From Streptosporangiaceae bacterium (GTDB lineage Bacteria; Actinomycetota; Actinomycetes; Streptosporangiales; Streptosporangiaceae), in assembly GCA_030039095.1 (NCBI GenBank), contig JASHQP010000649.1:1-6102 (forward strand): a stretch of 6,102 bases of DNA, written 5' to 3'. Under the pieces are notes generated by a model, which saw nothing but the letters and a program-made list of their open reading frames with translations, was not told the origin of the DNA and ran no database searches. This document shows positions 1-6,102 of this stretch, piece by piece. Each line of letters starts with the position of its first letter. Within the stretch, counting starts at the first letter, position 1. The position numbers and the translations under genes were made by a program.

Positions 1-216
1 CGCCCCATGGACGCGATCGTGGCCGCGACTCGCAACGCCGCCGAGAACCTGGGCCTGGCACCGGACGTGGGTACGCTCGAGGTCGGCAGGCTCGCGGACA
101 TCGTGGTACTCGACGGCGACCCCAGCAGCGACATCACGGCGGCGGGGCGGGTCCGGTTCGTGATGAAGGACGGCACGGTGGCCCGCGACGACCTCAGCGC
201 CACGGCGGCCGGCTGA
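1..216 (+). CDS. Amidohydrolase, C-terminal fragment (5' end outside window)
   Basis: The reading frame is open from the first base of the window and stops with TGA at 214-216, leaving about 71 residues of the C-terminus. The segment with GTLEVGRLADIVVLDGDP is the typical end of metal-dependent amidohydrolases of the imidazolonepropionase-like group. There the chain returns from the TIM barrel to the small beta-sandwich domain, and the final strand reads FVMKDGTV. The metal ligands and catalytic Asp would lie upstream and cannot be seen, so the substrate is unknown; cyclic amides, dipeptides and related hydrolysable compounds are all handled by this superfamily. It lies 32 bp before the ABC ATPase genes on the same strand, so it is probably in their operon. 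A hydrolase acting on what the transporter brings in is a reasonable inference. The ATG at 7 is internal and not the true start. Confidence 0.85.
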   Translation, partial: RPMDAIVAATRNAAENLGLAPDVGTLEVGRLADIVVLDGDPSSDITAAGRVRFVMKDGTVARDDLSATAAG

Positions 217-220
217 CCTG

Positions 221-258
221 CCGTGACCACGAGCCTGACGAGGCGGCCGTGACCACGA
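221..258 (+). repeat. 12-bp direct repeat around the ABC ATPase start
   Basis: CCGTGACCACGA occurs at 221-232 and again at 247-258; the second copy contains the GTG start of the ATPase gene. The first copy carries a GTG at 223 that opens a nine-residue reading frame ending in TGA at 250-252, overlapping the ATPase start as GTGA. This could be a duplication of the start region or a small coupling peptide. No function is demonstrated. Confidence 0.5.
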
Positions 259-1247
259 CGCTCGCCGTCCGCGATCTGACCGTGCGATTCCGCACCGGGC
301 AGTCCGTCGTGCACGCGGTGAACGGCGTCGGGTTCTCGGTGGACCGGGGCCAGACCATCGCGATCGTCGGAGAGTCCGGCTCGGGCAAAAGTGTCACCTG
401 CCTGTCCGTTCTCGGGCTGCTGCCGGGCAACGCCGAGGTCTCCGGCTCGGTACGGCTGGAGGGCCGCGAACTGCTCACGCTGCGCGAGGCCGAGGCACGC
501 AGGGTCCGCGGCAAGGACATCGGCCTGGTGTACCAGGACCCCATGGCCGCGCTGAATCCGGTCCGCACGATCGGCGCCCAGGTCTGCGAGCCGCTGCGGC
601 TGCACCTGGGGATGAGCCGGAGCGCCTCGCGGAAGAGGGCGGTGGAACTGCTCGCCACCGTCGGCATCCCGTCTCCGCAGCGTCAGCTGCGGTCCTATCC
701 GCACGAATTCAGCGGGGGGATGCGCCAGCGCGTGGTCATCGCGATGGCCATCGCCTGCGAGCCGAAGGTGCTGCTCGCCGACGAGCCGACCACCGCCCTC
801 GACGTGAGCATCCAGGCGCAGATACTCGAGCTGCTCAAGAGCCTGACCACGGAGCTGAAGCTGTCCCTGGTCCTGGTCAGCCACGACATGAGCGTCGTGG
901 CGGGCCTGGCGGACGAGGTGCTGGTGATGTACGCAGGCCTGGTTGCCGAGCAAGGCGACGCGCTGCAGGTCTTCGAGCATCCGGCGCACCCTTACACGCG
1001 CGGGCTGCTGAACTCGATACCGGACGCGACGCCCGATCCTGACGCTGCTCTCCTGGGCATACCAGGCCAGCCTCCCGATATGCGCAGTGTTCCGGCTGGC
1101 TGCCCGTTCAGGCCCCGATGCGTTCATGCCTTCGACAAGTGCGAGCAGCGGCCGCCGCTGGACGCACTGGGGGGCGACCACTCGGCAGCCTGCTGGCTCG
1201 GGGGGGAGGCCGATCATGCCGAGCGAACCCAGCGGGGGACCGCTTGA
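249..1247 (+). CDS. Oligopeptide/dipeptide ABC transporter ATP-binding protein (OppD/DppD-like)
   Basis: This 332-residue cytoplasmic ATPase would power uptake of peptides or similar solutes (nickel, sugars or other substrates are possible in this family). It has a complete nucleotide-binding domain: Walker A GESGSGKS at 41-48, Q-loop Gln96, signature FSGGMRQR at 154-161, Walker B VLLADE at 174-179 with the D-loop at Asp185, and switch His212. The C-terminal oligopeptide-transporter extension starts around HPAHPYTRGLL (244-254). It carries four cysteines (285, 291, 298, 315) in the spacing conserved in this family, where some members bind an iron-sulfur cluster. The length is normal. The GTG start at 249 was chosen because GAGG at 240-243 sits five bases upstream and the N-terminus then matches family length. 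The end overlaps the next ATPase gene by 32 bp, so the two are probably co-translated as a heterodimeric ATPase pair. The substrate cannot be told from an ATPase. Confidence 0.95.
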   Translation: MTTTLAVRDLTVRFRTGQSVVHAVNGVGFSVDRGQTIAIVGESGSGKSVTCLSVLGLLPGNAEVSGSVRLEGRELLTLREAEARRVRGKDIGLVYQDPMAALNPVRTIGAQVCEPLRLHLGMSRSASRKRAVELLATVGIPSPQRQLRSYPHEFSGGMRQRVVIAMAIACEPKVLLADEPTTALDVSIQAQILELLKSLTTELKLSLVLVSHDMSVVAGLADEVLVMYAGLVAEQGDALQVFEHPAHPYTRGLLNSIPDATPDPDAALLGIPGQPPDMRSVPAGCPFRPRCVHAFDKCEQRPPLDALGGDHSAACWLGGEADHAERTQRGTA

Positions 1248-2262
1248 GGTGCGCGACGACCCGCAGCCGCAGGATCCGAGCGCTCCGCCACTGCTTGATG
1301 TCAGGGACCTGCGCGTGCACTACCGGGCCGCCGGGCGGGTCGGCCGCCGCGACCTGCGCGTGCGGGCGGTGGACGGGGTCAGCCTTGCGCTGGGTCGCGG
1401 CGAGACCCTCGGGCTTGTCGGGGAATCCGGCAGTGGGAAGTCGACGCTGGCGAAGAGCCTCATCCGGCTGGAGCGCGCGACGAGCGGTGAGATTCATCTC
1501 GACGGCACGGACATCCTTGCCATTTCCGAGCGTGCCTTCGTGCCGATCCGCCGCAGAATCCAGATGGTCTTCCAGGACTCCCTGAACTCGCTCAATCCCA
1601 GGTACACGCTGGCCGACACGCTCGCCGAGCCGTTCATCGTCCACCACCTGGCCCCACGGCGTCAGCTCCGGGACAAGGTCGCCGAGCTGCTGGCCAGCGT
1701 GGGCCTGAGCCCCGAGATGATGGACCAGCGGGCCACGGAGCTCAGCGGCGGCCAGCGCCAGCGGGTGAACATCGCCCGGGCCCTGGCACCGACGCCCGAG
1801 GTCATCATCGCCGACGAGCCCACCTCGTCGCTCGACGTCTCGGTGCAGGCCCAGGTGCTCACCCTGATGCGCGAGCTGCAGCAGCAGATGGGGATGAGCT
1901 ACCTGTTCATCAGCCATGACCTAGGGGTCATCCGGCGGATGGCGTCTCAGGTCGCGGTGATGTACCTCGGCAAGGTGGTCGAAGCCGCGCCCCGGGACGC
2001 GATCTACGCACGACCGCTGCACCCCTACACCCGGGCTCTGATGATGGCGGCGCCGCGCCCGGACCCGCGCCGGGAACGACAGCGCAAGCAAGCCCCGATA
2101 CCGGGTGAAGTGCCGAGCGCGAGCGCGCAGCCGACCGGGTGCCGGTTCCACCCGCGGTGCGCAATGGCCAAGCCGGTTTGCGCTTCCGAGGAACCACCGT
2201 TGCGGCCAGTTGAGCCCGGGCACTGGTCGGCATGTCACTTTGCCGAGGAATTGCGGGCGTAA
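1216..2262 (+). CDS. Oligopeptide/dipeptide ABC transporter ATP-binding protein (OppF/DppF-like)
   Basis: This 348-residue ATPase is the second half of the ABC importer ATPase pair. Visible motifs are Walker A GESGSGKST at 69-77, Q-loop Gln120, signature LSGGQRQR at 176-183, Walker B VIIADE at 196-201, D-loop Asp207 and switch His234. The family's C-terminal extension begins at LHPYTRALM (268-276), with cysteines 309, 315, 322 and 340 in the pattern C-x5-C-x6-C...C. The frame is open back to 1087, but the ATG at 1216 is chosen because a strong purine-rich site, GGGGGGAGG at 1201-1209, lies six bases before it. An earlier start would add residues unlike the family and deepen the overlap with the upstream gene. 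The first 25 residues are Pro-rich and probably disordered. No permease or binding protein follows; the operon ends here and meets a convergent gene. Confidence 0.95.
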   Translation: MPSEPSGGPLEVRDDPQPQDPSAPPLLDVRDLRVHYRAAGRVGRRDLRVRAVDGVSLALGRGETLGLVGESGSGKSTLAKSLIRLERATSGEIHLDGTDILAISERAFVPIRRRIQMVFQDSLNSLNPRYTLADTLAEPFIVHHLAPRRQLRDKVAELLASVGLSPEMMDQRATELSGGQRQRVNIARALAPTPEVIIADEPTSSLDVSVQAQVLTLMRELQQQMGMSYLFISHDLGVIRRMASQVAVMYLGKVVEAAPRDAIYARPLHPYTRALMMAAPRPDPRRERQRKQAPIPGEVPSASAQPTGCRFHPRCAMAKPVCASEEPPLRPVEPGHWSACHFAEELRA

Positions 2263-2265
2263 CCT

Positions 2266-2285
2266 GCCTCAGCTCATCGTGAGGC
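2266..2285. terminator. Possible shared hairpin at the convergent junction
   Basis: GCCTCA at 2266-2271 can pair with TGAGGC at 2280-2285 across an eight-base loop. This is exactly where the ABC operon and the dehydrogenase gene converge, with stop codons six bases apart. There is no T-run on either side, so it is at best a weak, factor-independent bidirectional terminator. It overlaps the last codons of the dehydrogenase. Confidence 0.25.
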
Positions 2286-3006
2286 CGCCGCTGACGCTGA
2301 GGGTCTGACCGGTGACGAAGGACGCCTCGTCCGACGCGAGGAACGCGACGACGTTCGCGACATCGGCTGGCTGCCCGAGCCTGCGGAACGGGATCGCCTT
2401 GGTGAGCGCCTCCCGGAGCTTCGGCCCGGCGAACGACGCGAACAGCGCGGTGTCGGTGGGCCCGGGGCAGACGCAGTTGACCCTGACCTGGTGGCGCGCC
2501 ATCTCCCTGGCGAGGGACTTGGTAAAGGCGATGACCCCGCCCTTGGCCGCCGAATAGACGGCCTCGCCGGACGATCCCACCCGCCCGGCGTCCGAGCCCA
2601 GGTTCACCACGGCCCCGCTGCCCTGCGCGGCCATGATCGGCAGAACCGCCTTGCAGGTGTGCAGCACGCCGTACAGGTTGACGGCGATCGCCCGGTCCCA
2701 GTCGGCCGGCTCGGATTCGGTGAACTGGCTGGCCTTGTCCCATCCGGCGTTGTTGACCAGGACGTCGATGCGCCCGAAGAGCTGTGCAACCTGGTCGGCC
2801 ATGGCCTGCACGCCCTGGCGGTCGGTGACGTCGACGCCGAGCGCGACGGCTCCCGGCAGCCCTTCCGCGGTCTGAATGGCGCTGCGTTCGACCAGGTCGG
2901 TGACGACCACGGTCGCCCCCTCCGCGGCCAGCTTCTCGGCGATCGCCCTGCCGATGCCCTGGCCGCCACCGGTCACGATCGCGATCTTGTCGCTGAGCCC
3001 TGCCAT
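2269..3006 (-). CDS. Short-chain dehydrogenase/reductase, BadH-like
   Basis: This 245-residue soluble oxidoreductase of the classical SDR family oxidises an alcohol or reduces a ketone with a nicotinamide cofactor. Seen in order: the cofactor glycine motif TGGGQGIG (12-19); Asp37 at the end of the second strand, which favours NAD over NADP; Asp59-Val60; NNAG (85-88); and the catalytic set Asn110, Ser138, Tyr151 and Lys155. The end is FVTGQTLSVSGGLTMS. Several stretches (NNAGWD, the SDA-RVGSSGEAVY loop, VCPGPTDTALF) match what I recall of 2-hydroxycyclohexanecarboxyl-CoA dehydrogenase (BadH) from alicyclic-acid degradation, so a cyclic or branched hydroxyacyl-CoA substrate is plausible. No other genes of that pathway are visible. 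The start ATG (3006-3004) has AGGAAG five bases upstream. It may share a transcript with the PRC-barrel gene 121 bp upstream. Family call very secure; substrate uncertain. Confidence 0.93.
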   Translation of the reverse strand: MAGLSDKIAIVTGGGQGIGRAIAEKLAAEGATVVVTDLVERSAIQTAEGLPGAVALGVDVTDRQGVQAMADQVAQLFGRIDVLVNNAGWDKASQFTESEPADWDRAIAVNLYGVLHTCKAVLPIMAAQGSGAVVNLGSDAGRVGSSGEAVYSAAKGGVIAFTKSLAREMARHQVRVNCVCPGPTDTALFASFAGPKLREALTKAIPFRRLGQPADVANVVAFLASDEASFVTGQTLSVSGGLTMS

Positions 3007-3046
3007 GGATGCTTCCTATCAGTGGATGTCAGGTAGTTGCCAGCGG

Positions 3047-3075
3047 CCGGCCCGTTCCCCAATGGCGACGGCCGG
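3047..3075 (-). terminator. Possible weak hairpin between the PRC-barrel and SDR genes
   Basis: CCGGCC (3047-3052) can pair with GGCCGG (3070-3075) across a 17-base loop, downstream of the PRC-barrel stop on the minus strand. There is no T-run and the motif is easily produced by chance in such GC-rich DNA, so it may not separate the two genes. Confidence 0.15.
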
Positions 3076-3127
3076 TGGTCACGGCTGGCCTCGGACGCGG
3101 CGCTGATCGGGTTCGCCCGCAGTGGGC

Positions 3128-3799
3128 CTAGCCTGCCGGATGATCGCGGTCCACGGGCGGCAGGCCTTTCACCTGGTGCCTGGTGAGGCCGAGATGAATG
3201 AGAAGGGTCCCGATCTTGGTCACCGCGCTGATGGGGACGGCCACTTCCTTGTGGCCCCATCCGTGTCCCTCCTCGAGGAGCACATGGGTCACATAGCGGC
3301 CGCCGGGCTCCACGATCAGGCCCCGGACCTGCCCCATCTCGCCGTCGGTCGCGCAGACGGTCAGGTCGCGGCGTATCGCCACCTCGCCGGGCGGGACCGA
3401 GTCGACGATGACTTCCTGCGGGGCTTCCGGCCAGGCAGGGCTGCGGACGGGCCCGGCCCCGAACGCGCCCAAAACCCTGGACACCCCAACAGCAAAACTG
3501 CCGCCGCGAGGGATGTCCTGCTGGGGGGCCTGATGCCCGGTGGGGTCGAGGTCGGGCACGATCTCGGTCTCCTGGGCGGGCTGGAGCGCCCGGAACTCTG
3601 CCAGGCTGCAGCGAAGCCGCAGCCGACTCGCAGAAGCGTCCACAAGGCCAACGGGAACAAGCCGGGCTGTGTCCTTGCCGCGCTTCTGGCCGACGACGAG
3701 GTGAGTGACCTCCCGGGCGACCGGGTTTACGATGATGCGGCTCAGCTGGCCGCAGGCTCCATCGCTGCAGCTGACGTCGGCCCCGATCCGCAGCGCCAT
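3128..3799 (-). CDS. Tandem PRC-barrel domain protein
   Basis: This 223-residue protein contains two related beta-barrel-like units. Unit 1 (about 1-83) and unit 2 (about 140-215) share the pattern DG--GQ---IV-P--R-VTH, at residues 13-33 and 152-172. Each is followed by a strand reading LVPV (47-50) or VAVP (186-189). This layout is that of PRC-barrel proteins, the fold found in the photosynthetic reaction-centre H subunit and in the C-terminus of RimM; actinobacterial members with two copies are common and mostly uncharacterised. The linker (84-139) is Gly/Pro-rich and probably flexible. No signal peptide or membrane segment is visible. The frame is open to 3832, but the ATG at 3799-3797 is preferred because GAGGAGGG precedes it at good spacing and the sequence MALRIGADV begins the first barrel strand. 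A weak TAAGGT -10-like element lies upstream on the minus strand. Precise function unknown. Confidence 0.85.
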   Translation of the reverse strand: MALRIGADVSCSDGACGQLSRIIVNPVAREVTHLVVGQKRGKDTARLVPVGLVDASASRLRLRCSLAEFRALQPAQETEIVPDLDPTGHQAPQQDIPRGGSFAVGVSRVLGAFGAGPVRSPAWPEAPQEVIVDSVPPGEVAIRRDLTVCATDGEMGQVRGLIVEPGGRYVTHVLLEEGHGWGHKEVAVPISAVTKIGTLLIHLGLTRHQVKGLPPVDRDHPAG

Positions 3800-3995
3800 G
3801 GCCGCCCTCCTCGTTTCCCTGGACCTTAACAAGCACGGCGCCGGAGTGCCGTCGTGCAGCGCCGCCGTGCAGCGGTGCGGCCATCATTGCTATCAGCCGG
3901 CGCCACGCCGTTCTGCCTGTTCCGCCCGTGCTGGACCAGGGCTCAGTGAACGAGTTCCTTGGGCGACTGGCCTCTGCCTCGAGCAGCGCGACGGC

Positions 3996-4022
3996 GTGAC
4001 ACACGCCTTACTCCGATATGGT
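3996..4022 (+). promoter_or_regulatory. Candidate promoter for a leaderless transcript
   Basis: TATGGT at 4017-4022 fits the actinobacterial -10 pattern TANNNT, and its end lies six bases before the ATG at 4029, so the predicted transcript would begin at or next to that ATG. A GTGACA at 3996-4001 is a possible -35 at a short 15-base spacing. No ribosome-binding purine run lies before the ATG, which fits leaderless translation. Confidence 0.4.
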
Positions 4023-4028
4023 GTTTGT

Positions 4029-4193
4029 ATGGCGGCTGAACGCGAACTACGGCTTAGCTTCGGCCGATGGGTGCTGGCTGAGTGGCAGGACGAGCACGGC
4101 GCCTTCACGCCTGAGGAACTCGCGGCCGCCAGAGCTGAGATCGCGGTCGCGGACTTGGAGTACGTCCAGGGCAGGCAGGCGGCTGGCACATAA
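4029..4193 (+). CDS. Small hypothetical protein, 54 residues
   Basis: The protein is short, charged and predicted to be mostly helical. It begins MAAERELRLSFGRWVLAEWQ and has a segment DEHGAFTPEELAAARAEIA, then ends with QAAGT. The -W-x-E-W-x-D-E-H-G-A-F-T-x-E-E-L- stretch resembles the C-terminal, toxin-binding part of small antitoxins seen in actinobacteria, but no N-terminal DNA-binding ribbon is present and no PIN-domain or other toxin gene follows. A toxin-antitoxin role is therefore only a possibility. The frame is open much further upstream (to 3705), but that part lies opposite the PRC-barrel gene and is not convincing. The ATG at 4029 is chosen because a -10 box is placed exactly for a leaderless mRNA. 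Codon use is moderately G/C-ended. Confidence 0.55.
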   Translation: MAAERELRLSFGRWVLAEWQDEHGAFTPEELAAARAEIAVADLEYVQGRQAAGT

Positions 4194-4289
4194 CTAGCCG
4201 GCTGCCGCGTCGATCTGCTAGGGGCTTGACGTCTGCCATCAGCGCCGGGAGCGGCCGGCGCGCCGCGGCCGGGGATAGCCACGCTCGGG

Positions 4290-4529
4290 ATGCCTGCGGC
4301 CTTCATCGACAACGTGCTCGATCTCTGGCGGCAGGCGCAGCGGCTCGGTCCCCTTCAGGCGCTGGTATTCCTCAAAGCTGACGACGACGGAAGCGGGTGC
4401 CCCGCAGTGGGTGAGGATGTCTCAGCGGTCTGGCCTCCAGATAAGCCCTTCGAGGTTCAAGATCCCGACTGGCCGCCAGGGGTCTCAGAAGCCTTCCGGG
4501 CATGCTTCAATGAAGTAGAGGAGACTTGA
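4290..4529 (+). CDS. Hypothetical protein, 79 residues, first gene of a coupled pair
   Basis: I do not recognise this protein. It is acidic, starting with a probable amphipathic helix (residues 1-20, containing FIDNVLDLWRQAQRLG), followed by a short strand ALVFLK (24-29), an acidic turn DDDGSG, and a Trp/Pro-rich segment (VWPPDKPFEVQDPDWPPG, about 47-64) before a final helix. It has two cysteines and no signal peptide or membrane segment. The start is the first ATG after an in-frame TGA at 4227-4229, and no good ribosome site precedes it, so the true start is uncertain. Its TGA (4527-4529) is one base from the ATG of the next gene, and the next gene's ribosome site GAGGAG (4518-4523) lies inside this one. 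The two are therefore almost certainly translated together and may form a functional pair. Confidence 0.6.
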   Translation: MPAAFIDNVLDLWRQAQRLGPLQALVFLKADDDGSGCPAVGEDVSAVWPPDKPFEVQDPDWPPGVSEAFRACFNEVEET

Positions 4530-4530
4530 G

Positions 4531-5013
4531 ATGAACCTGGATGCCCTGGTCAAGAAGGGCTGCCGTCCGTGGGCTCCCTCTCCGGGGGCTCGCGATCTCG
4601 ACGTATGGCTCGAGTACGACGTGCCGACTGCCGGGACGTTCATGCTGGATTCGCAGCCAGTGATCTTCACTGTTCTGGGCAGCGCAGACGACCCGGTGTC
4701 AGTCTGGGCGTACACCTGTCTCACGGAAGACGACGCGAAATCACTGGGCGACCCGAGGTTCGGCTCCGTGGACGACGTGGCTCGGGCAATGGACGAGCAG
4801 TTCACCGGGCATCGAGCTGTCTTTGCGGTTGCCGACAAGCTCGAGATTTGGCGGTGGACCTCTTTGGAGGTTGAGGAGAGCCTCATCAGGAGTGCGCTGG
4901 CATTCCTAAGCCAGGTACGCGAATCCCTTGAGCAGAAGAAGACGCCCGATGCAGAATTCCAGGTCAAGTTGGCTGGTATAGAGGCCGCCAAGTCTGAACT
5001 CGTCTCTGCCTGA
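4531..5013 (+). CDS. Hypothetical protein, 160 residues, second gene of a coupled pair
   Basis: I do not recognise this protein. The start is well supported: GAGGAG at 4518-4523 stands seven bases before the ATG, and the preceding gene stops one base upstream. The N-terminal two thirds alternates likely strands (LDVWLEYDV 23-31, PVIFTVLG 43-50, VSVWAYTCL 56-64) with turns. It is followed by a helix around SVDDVARAMDEQF (79-91), a strand pair AVFAVADKLEIWRW (96-109), and a long C-terminal helical region with coiled-coil-like character (from about 112 to the end). No signal peptide, membrane segment or known catalytic motif is evident, suggesting a small cytoplasmic alpha/beta protein. Codons use A/T in the third position more freely than the transporter genes to the left, which suggests a different origin. 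The location beside integrase and attachment-site remains makes it likely cargo of a mobile element. Confidence 0.7.
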   Translation: MNLDALVKKGCRPWAPSPGARDLDVWLEYDVPTAGTFMLDSQPVIFTVLGSADDPVSVWAYTCLTEDDAKSLGDPRFGSVDDVARAMDEQFTGHRAVFAVADKLEIWRWTSLEVEESLIRSALAFLSQVRESLEQKKTPDAEFQVKLAGIEAAKSELVSA

Positions 5014-5130
5014 TCACTGAGCCCAGCCAGACCGAGGTTCGCCGAAGATCGCTTGGTTGGTCGAATTGCCTTTCATTTACGGTAATCTGCTGGCCTAATC
5101 GTAGTGGTGGGCAGGCGTCTGACAGTGACC

Positions 5131-5148
5131 TCACGCCGCGCGGCGTGA
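5131..5148. repeat. Perfect 18-bp palindrome
   Basis: TCACGCCGCGCGGCGTGA is identical to its own reverse complement over all 18 bases. The symmetry ends immediately outside. It lies in non-coding sequence 118 bp after the preceding gene. It could be a dimeric-regulator operator, a recombinase or replication site, or a terminator-like cruciform; there is no spacer for an RNA loop, so an operator is somewhat more likely than a terminator. Confidence 0.6.
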
Positions 5149-5198
5149 TCCCCAACCTTCTGATCCGTAGTCAGATGCTCAATCGGACGTCCGTATGT

Positions 5199-5396
5199 TC
5201 AGTGAACGCCCTGGGTGAGCTTGCTCCGTGCGTAGGCCCTCACCTCACGGAGCAGCCGGTACTTGACCTCAAACGCGTCCAGGCCTGCTCCGCGGCCGTG
5301 ATCTTGCACAGGGCCCCGAACTGGCCGGCGCCGACGGCAGACCAGGGCACCGGGGACTGCTGGCGCCTCCCAGATCTGGCCGTCCCATCGTCAGGC
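5199..5396 (-). pseudogene. Possible remains of a minus-strand gene
   Basis: On the minus strand one frame ends LDAFEVKYRLLREVRAYAR, then SKLTQGVH and a TGA (5201-5199). A neighbouring frame just upstream reads SAVGAGQFGALCKITAAEQA with almost all codons ending in G or C. A single shift near EQA would join them into one plausible helical C-terminus, which suggests a frameshifted gene tail. There is no start codon or ribosome site and I cannot name the family. It may be chance coding-like sequence. Confidence 0.22.
5222..5254. repeat. Inverted repeat with a 9-bp stem
   Basis: TGCTCCGTG at 5222-5230 is the exact reverse complement of CACGGAGCA at 5246-5254, with a 15-base spacer. It has no following T-run. 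It falls within the suspected minus-strand gene remnant, so it may be incidental or a binding site. Confidence 0.45.
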
Positions 5397-5404
5397 TGTG
5401 CACT

Positions 5405-5620
5405 GCTCACGTCCGGCACGCAGCTTGTGCCAGCCATCAGCCTGCCGTTAGGCGTTCTCAGGCGCCGAGGTACAGGCTCTGCTTGGCCACGAGGATTACG
5501 CCACGACCGAGCGGTATGCGCACCTCGCTCCCCGGTGCGCACGGCAAGCTTCTCGAATAGTGGGCGCGGCGTCGTGACGCATCGGTGACGCACGAAACGA
5601 ATGAGGCCCGCCCCTCATAA
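5405..5620 (+). pseudogene. Tyrosine recombinase (phage-type integrase), broken C-terminal remnant
   Basis: Pieces of one integrase C-terminus lie in order but in alternating frames. AHVRHAACA (from 5405) matches the box II HxxRH motif. After a frame change, SGAEVQALLGHEDYATTERY (5458-5517) gives the conserved LLGH box and the catalytic tyrosine (Tyr codon 5515-5517), followed by AHLAP. An extra C in CCCC (5530-5533) then shifts the frame, after which GAHGKLLE, an in-frame TAG (5558-5560), and RRRDASVTHETNEARPS to TAA (5618-5620) follow, the usual tail of actinomycete integrases. The distance from the HxxR histidine to the LLGH histidine is 80 bases, close to the 78 expected from intact relatives, so little but small indels has happened between them. 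The N-terminal DNA-binding domain and the box I arginine are absent. Such an enzyme recombines attP with attB; this one cannot be active. Its tail ends 24 bases from the tRNA-derived core, the normal int-att arrangement. Confidence 0.8.
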
Positions 5621-5644
5621 GGAGAAGCGATCCTCTGACCTGGG

Positions 5645-5686
5645 TCGGGGTGGCCGGATTTGAACCGGCGGCCTCTTCGTCCCGAA
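5645..5686 (-). other. 3' half of a tRNA-Pro(CGG) gene; likely integrative-element attachment core
   Basis: Read on the minus strand, the segment gives the anticodon loop TTCGGGA (anticodon CGG) continuing into the 3' anticodon-stem strand CGAAG. Next come the variable region, a perfect T-arm (GCCGG-TTCAAAT-CCGGC), the acceptor strand CACCCCG and discriminator A at 5645. No 5' half (D-arm, 5' acceptor strand) is found to the right, so it is not a functional tRNA. A 3' tRNA half without the 5' half is what integration into a tRNA 3' end leaves at the far end of an element. pSAM2-type elements of Streptomyces are known to use a tRNA-Pro gene. No CCA is encoded, as is usual in these hosts. The exact right edge is ambiguous by a few bases because TTCG occurs twice in the intact tRNA stem-loop. 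Confidence 0.75.
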
Positions 5687-5708
5687 GCATTTACGGCGCC
5701 TCCGTTCG

Positions 5709-5814
5709 GGTCTGGATGAGTCGAAGGGGGAGCCCCTCACCTGCACAAACGCTCTGAGTGGGTCGCGTCGAGTCTGGCGGAGTCTGACCACGTTGGCTCC
5801 CCTTCTGGCTCCCC
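5709..5814. repeat. Cluster of short direct and inverted repeats beside the attachment core
   Basis: TGGCTCCCC occurs at 5794-5802 and 5806-5814, with an inverted copy of its GGCTCCCC part (GGGGAGCC) at 5727-5734. GAGTCTG occurs at 5770-5776 and 5780-5786, ten bases apart, and a related GGTCTGGA lies at 5709-5716. Regularly spaced short repeats next to a core are typical of arm sites bound by integrase or excisionase, but no binding is shown. The whole stretch 5687-5844 has no gene. Confidence 0.4.
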
Positions 5815-5844
5815 GTGGCCCCTCAAAGCGGGAGAGGGGCACCT

Positions 5845-6066
5845 ATGCCAATCAAGATCGAAGACGACTTCATGAGCCTGGAGGTTGACGGGGCCGTCCT
5901 GGCGACGGCGCGAAAGCAGGCGGACGGCTGGTGGGAGGTCAGCTATTGGCCGCGGTTCTTTGATCGCAACGAGGCGATCACTGCCCTGACCATCACTGAA
6001 CTCCTCGACAGCGGTCACGACAGCAACGATCCGATTATCCGGGCGCTCCGCGAGGAGTTGCGATGA
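5845..6066 (+). CDS. Small protein of an integrative element, 73 residues
   Basis: The start ATG is supported by GGAGAGGGG at 5831-5839, five bases upstream. The protein begins MPIKIEDDFMSLEVDGAVLA, continues with a predicted beta-hairpin (DGWWEVSYWP, 27-36), then FFDRNEAITALTITELLDSG (38-57) and a C-terminal helix ending REELR. It looks like a compact beta-beta-alpha domain with no signal or membrane segment. Small proteins of this kind stand in front of DUF2637 genes in actinomycete integrative elements as far as I recall, but I know of no assigned function. Its TGA overlaps the next start as ATGA (6063-6066), so the two are translationally coupled. It is the first gene right of the attachment core and reads away from it, as expected for the opening gene of the right-hand element. 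Confidence 0.75.
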   Translation: MPIKIEDDFMSLEVDGAVLATARKQADGWWEVSYWPRFFDRNEAITALTITELLDSGHDSNDPIIRALREELR

Positions 6067-6102
6067 CGGACCGACTCATCAGGATCACCACTGCGCTAGC
6101 CG
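6063..6102 (+). CDS. Start of a DUF2637-like gene (3' end outside window)
   Basis: Only 13 residues, MTDRLIRITTALA, are inside the window. This opening, with a short charged N-terminus running into what would be a hydrophobic helix, is like that of DUF2637 membrane proteins found in actinomycete plasmids and AICEs next to transfer and replication genes. The start overlaps the preceding stop by ATGA. With so few residues the family call is tentative; that a gene starts here is more secure. Confidence 0.5.
   Translation, partial: MTDRLIRITTALA

Follow-up and report, generated by a model that had tools for sequence, protein, structure and literature searches.

The window, which is the whole stretch of 6,102 nucleotides analyzed here, very probably ends inside an integrated element: positions 5643 to 6102 were assigned, at a probability of roughly 0.88, to the tRNA-distal end of an AICE-like element inserted into a tRNA-Pro(CGG) gene, beside the stump of an older integrase. 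In the proposed course of events, a tyrosine integrase would insert the AICE-like element into the tRNA-Pro(CGG) gene, and recombination in the anticodon loop would leave the element with the window's core copy on one side and a regenerated intact tRNA on the other. The regenerated tRNA-Pro would be expected to the right of the window, behind xis and int. The site would already have borne the integrase stump of an older element, and this stump would now flank the outer core. The features concerned are as follows.

5461..5559, plus strand: relic of a tyrosine integrase, a C-terminal stump directed toward the tRNA core; PF00589 match under cutoff; collinear with a stump in the relative G039.

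5643..5686, minus strand: tRNA-Pro(CGG) fragment that runs from the anticodon loop to the 3' end; att core and left end of the right-hand element.

5687..5844, no strand: non-coding element arm next to the core, with the motif CTCACCTGCA and repeated GGCTCCC; aligns with seven element ends in six genomes and, in addition, with G314.

5845..6066, plus strand: conserved 73-aa gene that opens the right-hand element; matches to known families all fell below threshold or were absent.

6063..6102, plus strand: start of a DUF2637 (SpdB-like) gene, 13 codons to the window end; MTDRLIRITTALA, identical to locus L001 from 10219 on.

The stump, core, breakpoint at 5686, arm and first genes thus lie in the window itself, and the whole architecture was seen in relatives.

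The core was identified by comparison with G039. Window positions 5643 to 5686 (minus strand) correspond to nucleotides 33 to 76 of the intact tRNA-Pro(CGG) of that genome and are identical to it at 44 of 44 bases, slightly more than the tRNA 3' half placed at 5645 to 5686 on the minus strand by the first-pass annotation. The 5' half is missing, as had also been claimed: identity with the G039 tRNA stops at 5686, and the cut point falls in the anticodon loop. No complete tRNA was found by ARAGORN in the window. The core match (E=7e-15) was not attributed to chance, since the best other stretch of the window reached only E=1.0 when searched with the core and E=0.36 when searched with the whole tRNA.

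G039 was the nearest relative found, its counterpart of the PRC-barrel protein encoded at 3128 to 3832 being 68% identical, the best of 18 matching genomes (200 searched). Its gene order is metallophosphoesterase, intact tRNA-Pro(CGG), integrase stump, and from the stump through the spacer to the tRNA 3' part it runs collinear with window positions 5466 to 5686 (86% identity over 221 columns). The two diverge at 5686, where G039 continues into the tRNA 5' half and the window into other DNA. Because G039 is collinear up to this position and then carries an intact tRNA-Pro, the window carries a later insertion at 5686. On the left, collinearity ends near 5466; the left flank of G039 at its tRNA-Pro matched 5466 to 5640 only, and its remaining matches were weak or on other contigs. 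Comparison with a relative without the element had been proposed as a check, and it showed this left side continuing into an intact tRNA-Pro, so that G039 and the window form a clean before/after pair for one insertion. Further left in the window (4290 to 5013), two adjacent ORFs of 79 and 160 aa had no Pfam or NCBIfam match; the 160-aa protein has 23 homologues, whose names are uninformative and say nothing on mobility.

The integrase tail that had been described to the left of the tRNA and pointing into it was recovered at 5461 to 5559 (plus strand), with the translation GAEVQALLGHEDYATTERYAHLAP. Its match to PF00589 (E=3.8e-4) lies under Pfam's cutoff, and that of the longer homologous stump of G039 (E=6.1e-6) is also just under it. 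The reading frame of the window stump is broken upstream, and in G039, G144 and G107 the integrase has likewise undergone truncation or a frameshift. In G144 the same stump, frameshifted, lies behind an intact tRNA-Pro; in G107 a shortened stump lies behind a partial core, 2.2 kb from an intact tRNA-Pro, an arrangement that resembles the window. Relatives of the stump were detected in 131 of 200 genomes (E<=0.001). The best match outside G039 was a 429-aa frame in G031 that adjoins tRNA-Ile(GAT), and G031 therefore gives no picture of the old integrase at tRNA-Pro.

The stump gave no match at E<=1e-3 to the integrases of the right-hand element type in G001, G003 and G053, and so belongs to another element rather than being that type's own integrase. 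A trace of an element on the other side of the core, a feature of accretion, is accordingly present, the stump being homologous to those of G039, G144 and G107. Since the stump occurs in G039 and G144 where the insertion is absent, it was probably in place before the right-hand element arrived. The accretion at one tRNA-Pro site that had been proposed is borne out by this stump to the left of the core together with the later insertion at 5686 relative to G039. An older element had been called upon for the integrase-att arrangement on the left; the derivation of the integrase tail from such an element was upheld in part, only the C-terminal stump being left. The older element appears to survive in this stump only, its outer boundary seemingly lost.

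The order integrase, core, transfer genes would equally be that of a circular form, and the junction could be read as the attP of one circular or tandem element, with its own integrase on the left and its own transfer genes on the right. Such a reading is extremely improbable, given that G039 and G144 carry, next to an intact tRNA-Pro, chromosomal scars with which the left part is collinear, and that the stump is unmatched in the integrases of this element type from G001, G003 and G053. The circular attP form of a single element was for the most part ruled out by the G039 collinearity, the left side being a chromosomal scar in relatives.

On the right of the core, the opening genes of a transfer-type element had been claimed, and the 73-aa gene and the DUF2637 start were found there. 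The 73-aa gene has 128 homologues, of which the 120 listed all reach E<=3.5e-21; one of those listed is from a Streptosporangiaceae MAG. No curated family was matched, and no homologue was found in plasmid and phage records (E<=0.01) or in IMG/VR. When the junction DNA was compared with plasmid records, nine records matched, over the tRNA part alone. The 73-aa ORF (5845 to 6066) overlaps the ATG at 6063 of the DUF2637 gene, and the L001 protein that starts at 10219 is PF10935 DUF2637 (E=4e-18). Among the seven aligned element ends, the second G053 arm resembles the window arm only to about 5752. The GGCTCCC repeats of the arm (window 5687 to 5875; L105 12337 to 13768) may represent a cis site of the element.

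Places with a tRNA-Pro core plus the arm were examined in seven genomes (G001, G003, G053, G093, G108, G129 and G314), chosen among the arm matches listed, at most about two or three for any one genome. The core and the same right arm are common to all seven, and both ends lie on one contig in six; in G093 the two cores are on different contigs. An intact tRNA-Pro(CGG) with an adjoining integrase match stands at the far end in 6/6 single-contig relatives, at core-to-core distances of 10.5 kb (G001), 13.4 kb (G003), 36.6 kb (G053), 14.0 kb (G108), 3.5 kb (G129) and 13.7 kb (G314). The far-end integrase is near full-length in G001 (68% to the G003 protein), G003, G053 (69%) and G314 (67%), and the match is partial in G108 and G129. 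The order read from G001 is core, 73-aa homologue, DUF2637, FtsK-like TraB, xis-like HTH_17, integrase, intact tRNA-Pro, metallophosphoesterase. TraB of this element is of the FtsK/SpoIIIE type (PF01580, E=1.8e-10), and tblastn with the TraB protein of G002 gave matches in G001 and G003. A tyrosine integrase (PF00589) was found in G001, G003 and G002 and the xis-like HTH_17 gene in G001 and G002; the related G002 element has NUDIX, GntR/UTRA and HTH_17 genes. No Rep family match was obtained among the scanned ORFs (a subset) of G001, G002 and G003.

These relatives agree with the proposal that a right-hand element explains the missing 5' half, since their core and arm lead to an integrase and an intact tRNA-Pro(CGG) 3.5 to 36.6 kb away, and the left side in G039 joins an intact tRNA. 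By analogy with them, the right end of the window's own copy would carry an intact tRNA-Pro and an integrase, and the element probably was or is mobile. An assembly artefact, in which the left flank and the element were falsely joined via the 44-base repeat, is very unlikely: the join does sit at a repeat, but the same core-element junction occurs in contigs of relatives, including a 389-kb isolate contig (G001, Actinomadura nitritigenes).

Several neighboring genes and segments were also recorded in these genomes. The G003 element (L012 2775 to 6134) encodes a protein of 1120 aa that combines an N6_Mtase domain with a Type ISP C-terminal specificity domain, likely restriction-modification cargo. 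In Actinomadura nitritigenes, a MobC/NikA-like gene and a gene for a MobA/VirD2-type relaxase lie left of the core (L004 1042 to 3053). In G107, partial and intact tRNA-Pro are separated by a 2.2-kb segment (L053 8468 to 10679) in which the integrase, DUF2637 and TraB queries found no match, and which was noted as a very small or deleted element.

The arm was also found at other places. Nine further arm regions in eight genomes were fetched, of which that in G314 has a tRNA-Pro core and the other eight (G324 twice, G304, G001:C38, G032, G310, G180 and G054) lack one. In G180 an integrase of the same type (69%) adjoins tRNA-Ala(CGC). Arm and integrase type alone therefore do not fix the target, and in the window it is the core that does so. 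The same kind of junction was observed at another tRNA in G002 (L001 8050 to 10219 and L097; contig C78, ~26.4 to 40.5 kb), where a partial tRNA-Ala has an intact serine recombinase running into it and is followed by the 73-aa gene and by DUF2637; a tyrosine integrase (PF00589, E=5.2e-26) and, with it, an intact tRNA-Ala(GGC) are located 12.2 kb further along.

Use of the tRNA-Pro site across the family was surveyed by searching 338 family genomes for the core pattern at <=2 mismatches; cores with a deletion, such as the outer core of G003, escape this pattern. Matches were found in 333/338 genomes, with at least two copies in 82/338 and at least three in 9/338, some of which may be second tRNA genes. 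Among the matches listed, 28 contigs carry at least two copies, neighbors being 972 bases to 103 kb apart. ARAGORN, run on stretches fetched from eight genomes (G001, G003, G053, G107, G108, G120, G129 and G140), returned one intact tRNA-Pro in each, the rest being partial cores. Stacks of one intact tRNA-Pro plus partial cores comprise three cores and a weaker fourth in G120, three in G053, two in G140 and two in G003. A heavily used insertion site is in this way documented in a soil actinobacterial family. It is a tentative idea, and one more apt to fail than to hold, that accretion has a family-wide hotspot in the tRNA-Pro(CGG) site by the metallophosphoesterase gene, where newcomers enter next to the intact tRNA and the stacks, inherited integrase stumps included, form a time-ordered record.

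The true stacks in G120, G053, G140 and G003 lend some plausibility to two stacked elements in the window as well, the older of which would retain a core of its own as left-hand boundary. This is nonetheless unlikely for the window. The third core copy predicted to the left by the first-pass annotation was absent: no further core was found in window positions 1 to 5640, nor any copy in G144 over the 36.5 kb that follow the same stump, so that an outer core bounding the older element, as accretion can show, was found in neither stretch. G144 and G039 each have one core match genome-wide at <=2 mismatches, the G039 contig ending 1.2 kb past the tRNA. The broken frame of the stump in the window, and its truncation or frameshift in G039, G144 and G107, also speak against an element that is still bounded. 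As far as can be read from these sequences, there is no support for a second element that has an outer core of its own, and a single insertion beside a stump remains the preferred reading.

Elements of the pSAM2 type target tRNA-Pro and carry the GntR protein KorSA. The G001 element is like these AICEs in its tyrosine integrase at tRNA-Pro, FtsK-like TraB and DUF2637, a likeness by gene content, and the related G002 element is like them in having NUDIX and GntR genes; unlike in pSAM2-type AICEs, no replication initiator was recognized among the scanned ORFs of the relatives. The NUDIX protein Pif of pSAM2-type AICEs is named in PMC3218068. That paper describes tandem AICEs at tRNA genes in the order att-tra-rep-int-att, among them Frankia Fean5518/Fean5534, in tandem at tRNA-Lys, and Fean6303, all of which were observed over their full length and assayed for excision. 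The points of likeness to these Frankia elements are insertion in tandem at a tRNA gene and the att-tra-rep-int-att order, whereas the window shows one end and no rep gene was recognized in the scanned ORFs of its relatives. For Streptomyces, PMC9513070 describes a single tRNA-Arg site occupied by several AICEs together with a conserved remnant, and terms this accretion. That case is alike in having elements that follow one another at a single tRNA gene, with direct repeats separating them, and in the conserved remnant located at the outer repeat; the window differs in its target, tRNA-Pro(CGG), in belonging to another actinobacterial family, in showing one element end, and in having a remnant for which no outer repeat was found. 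No principle is changed, accretion at tRNA genes being already established: the window adds a new case of this known process, for which insertion beside a conserved remnant has also been published.
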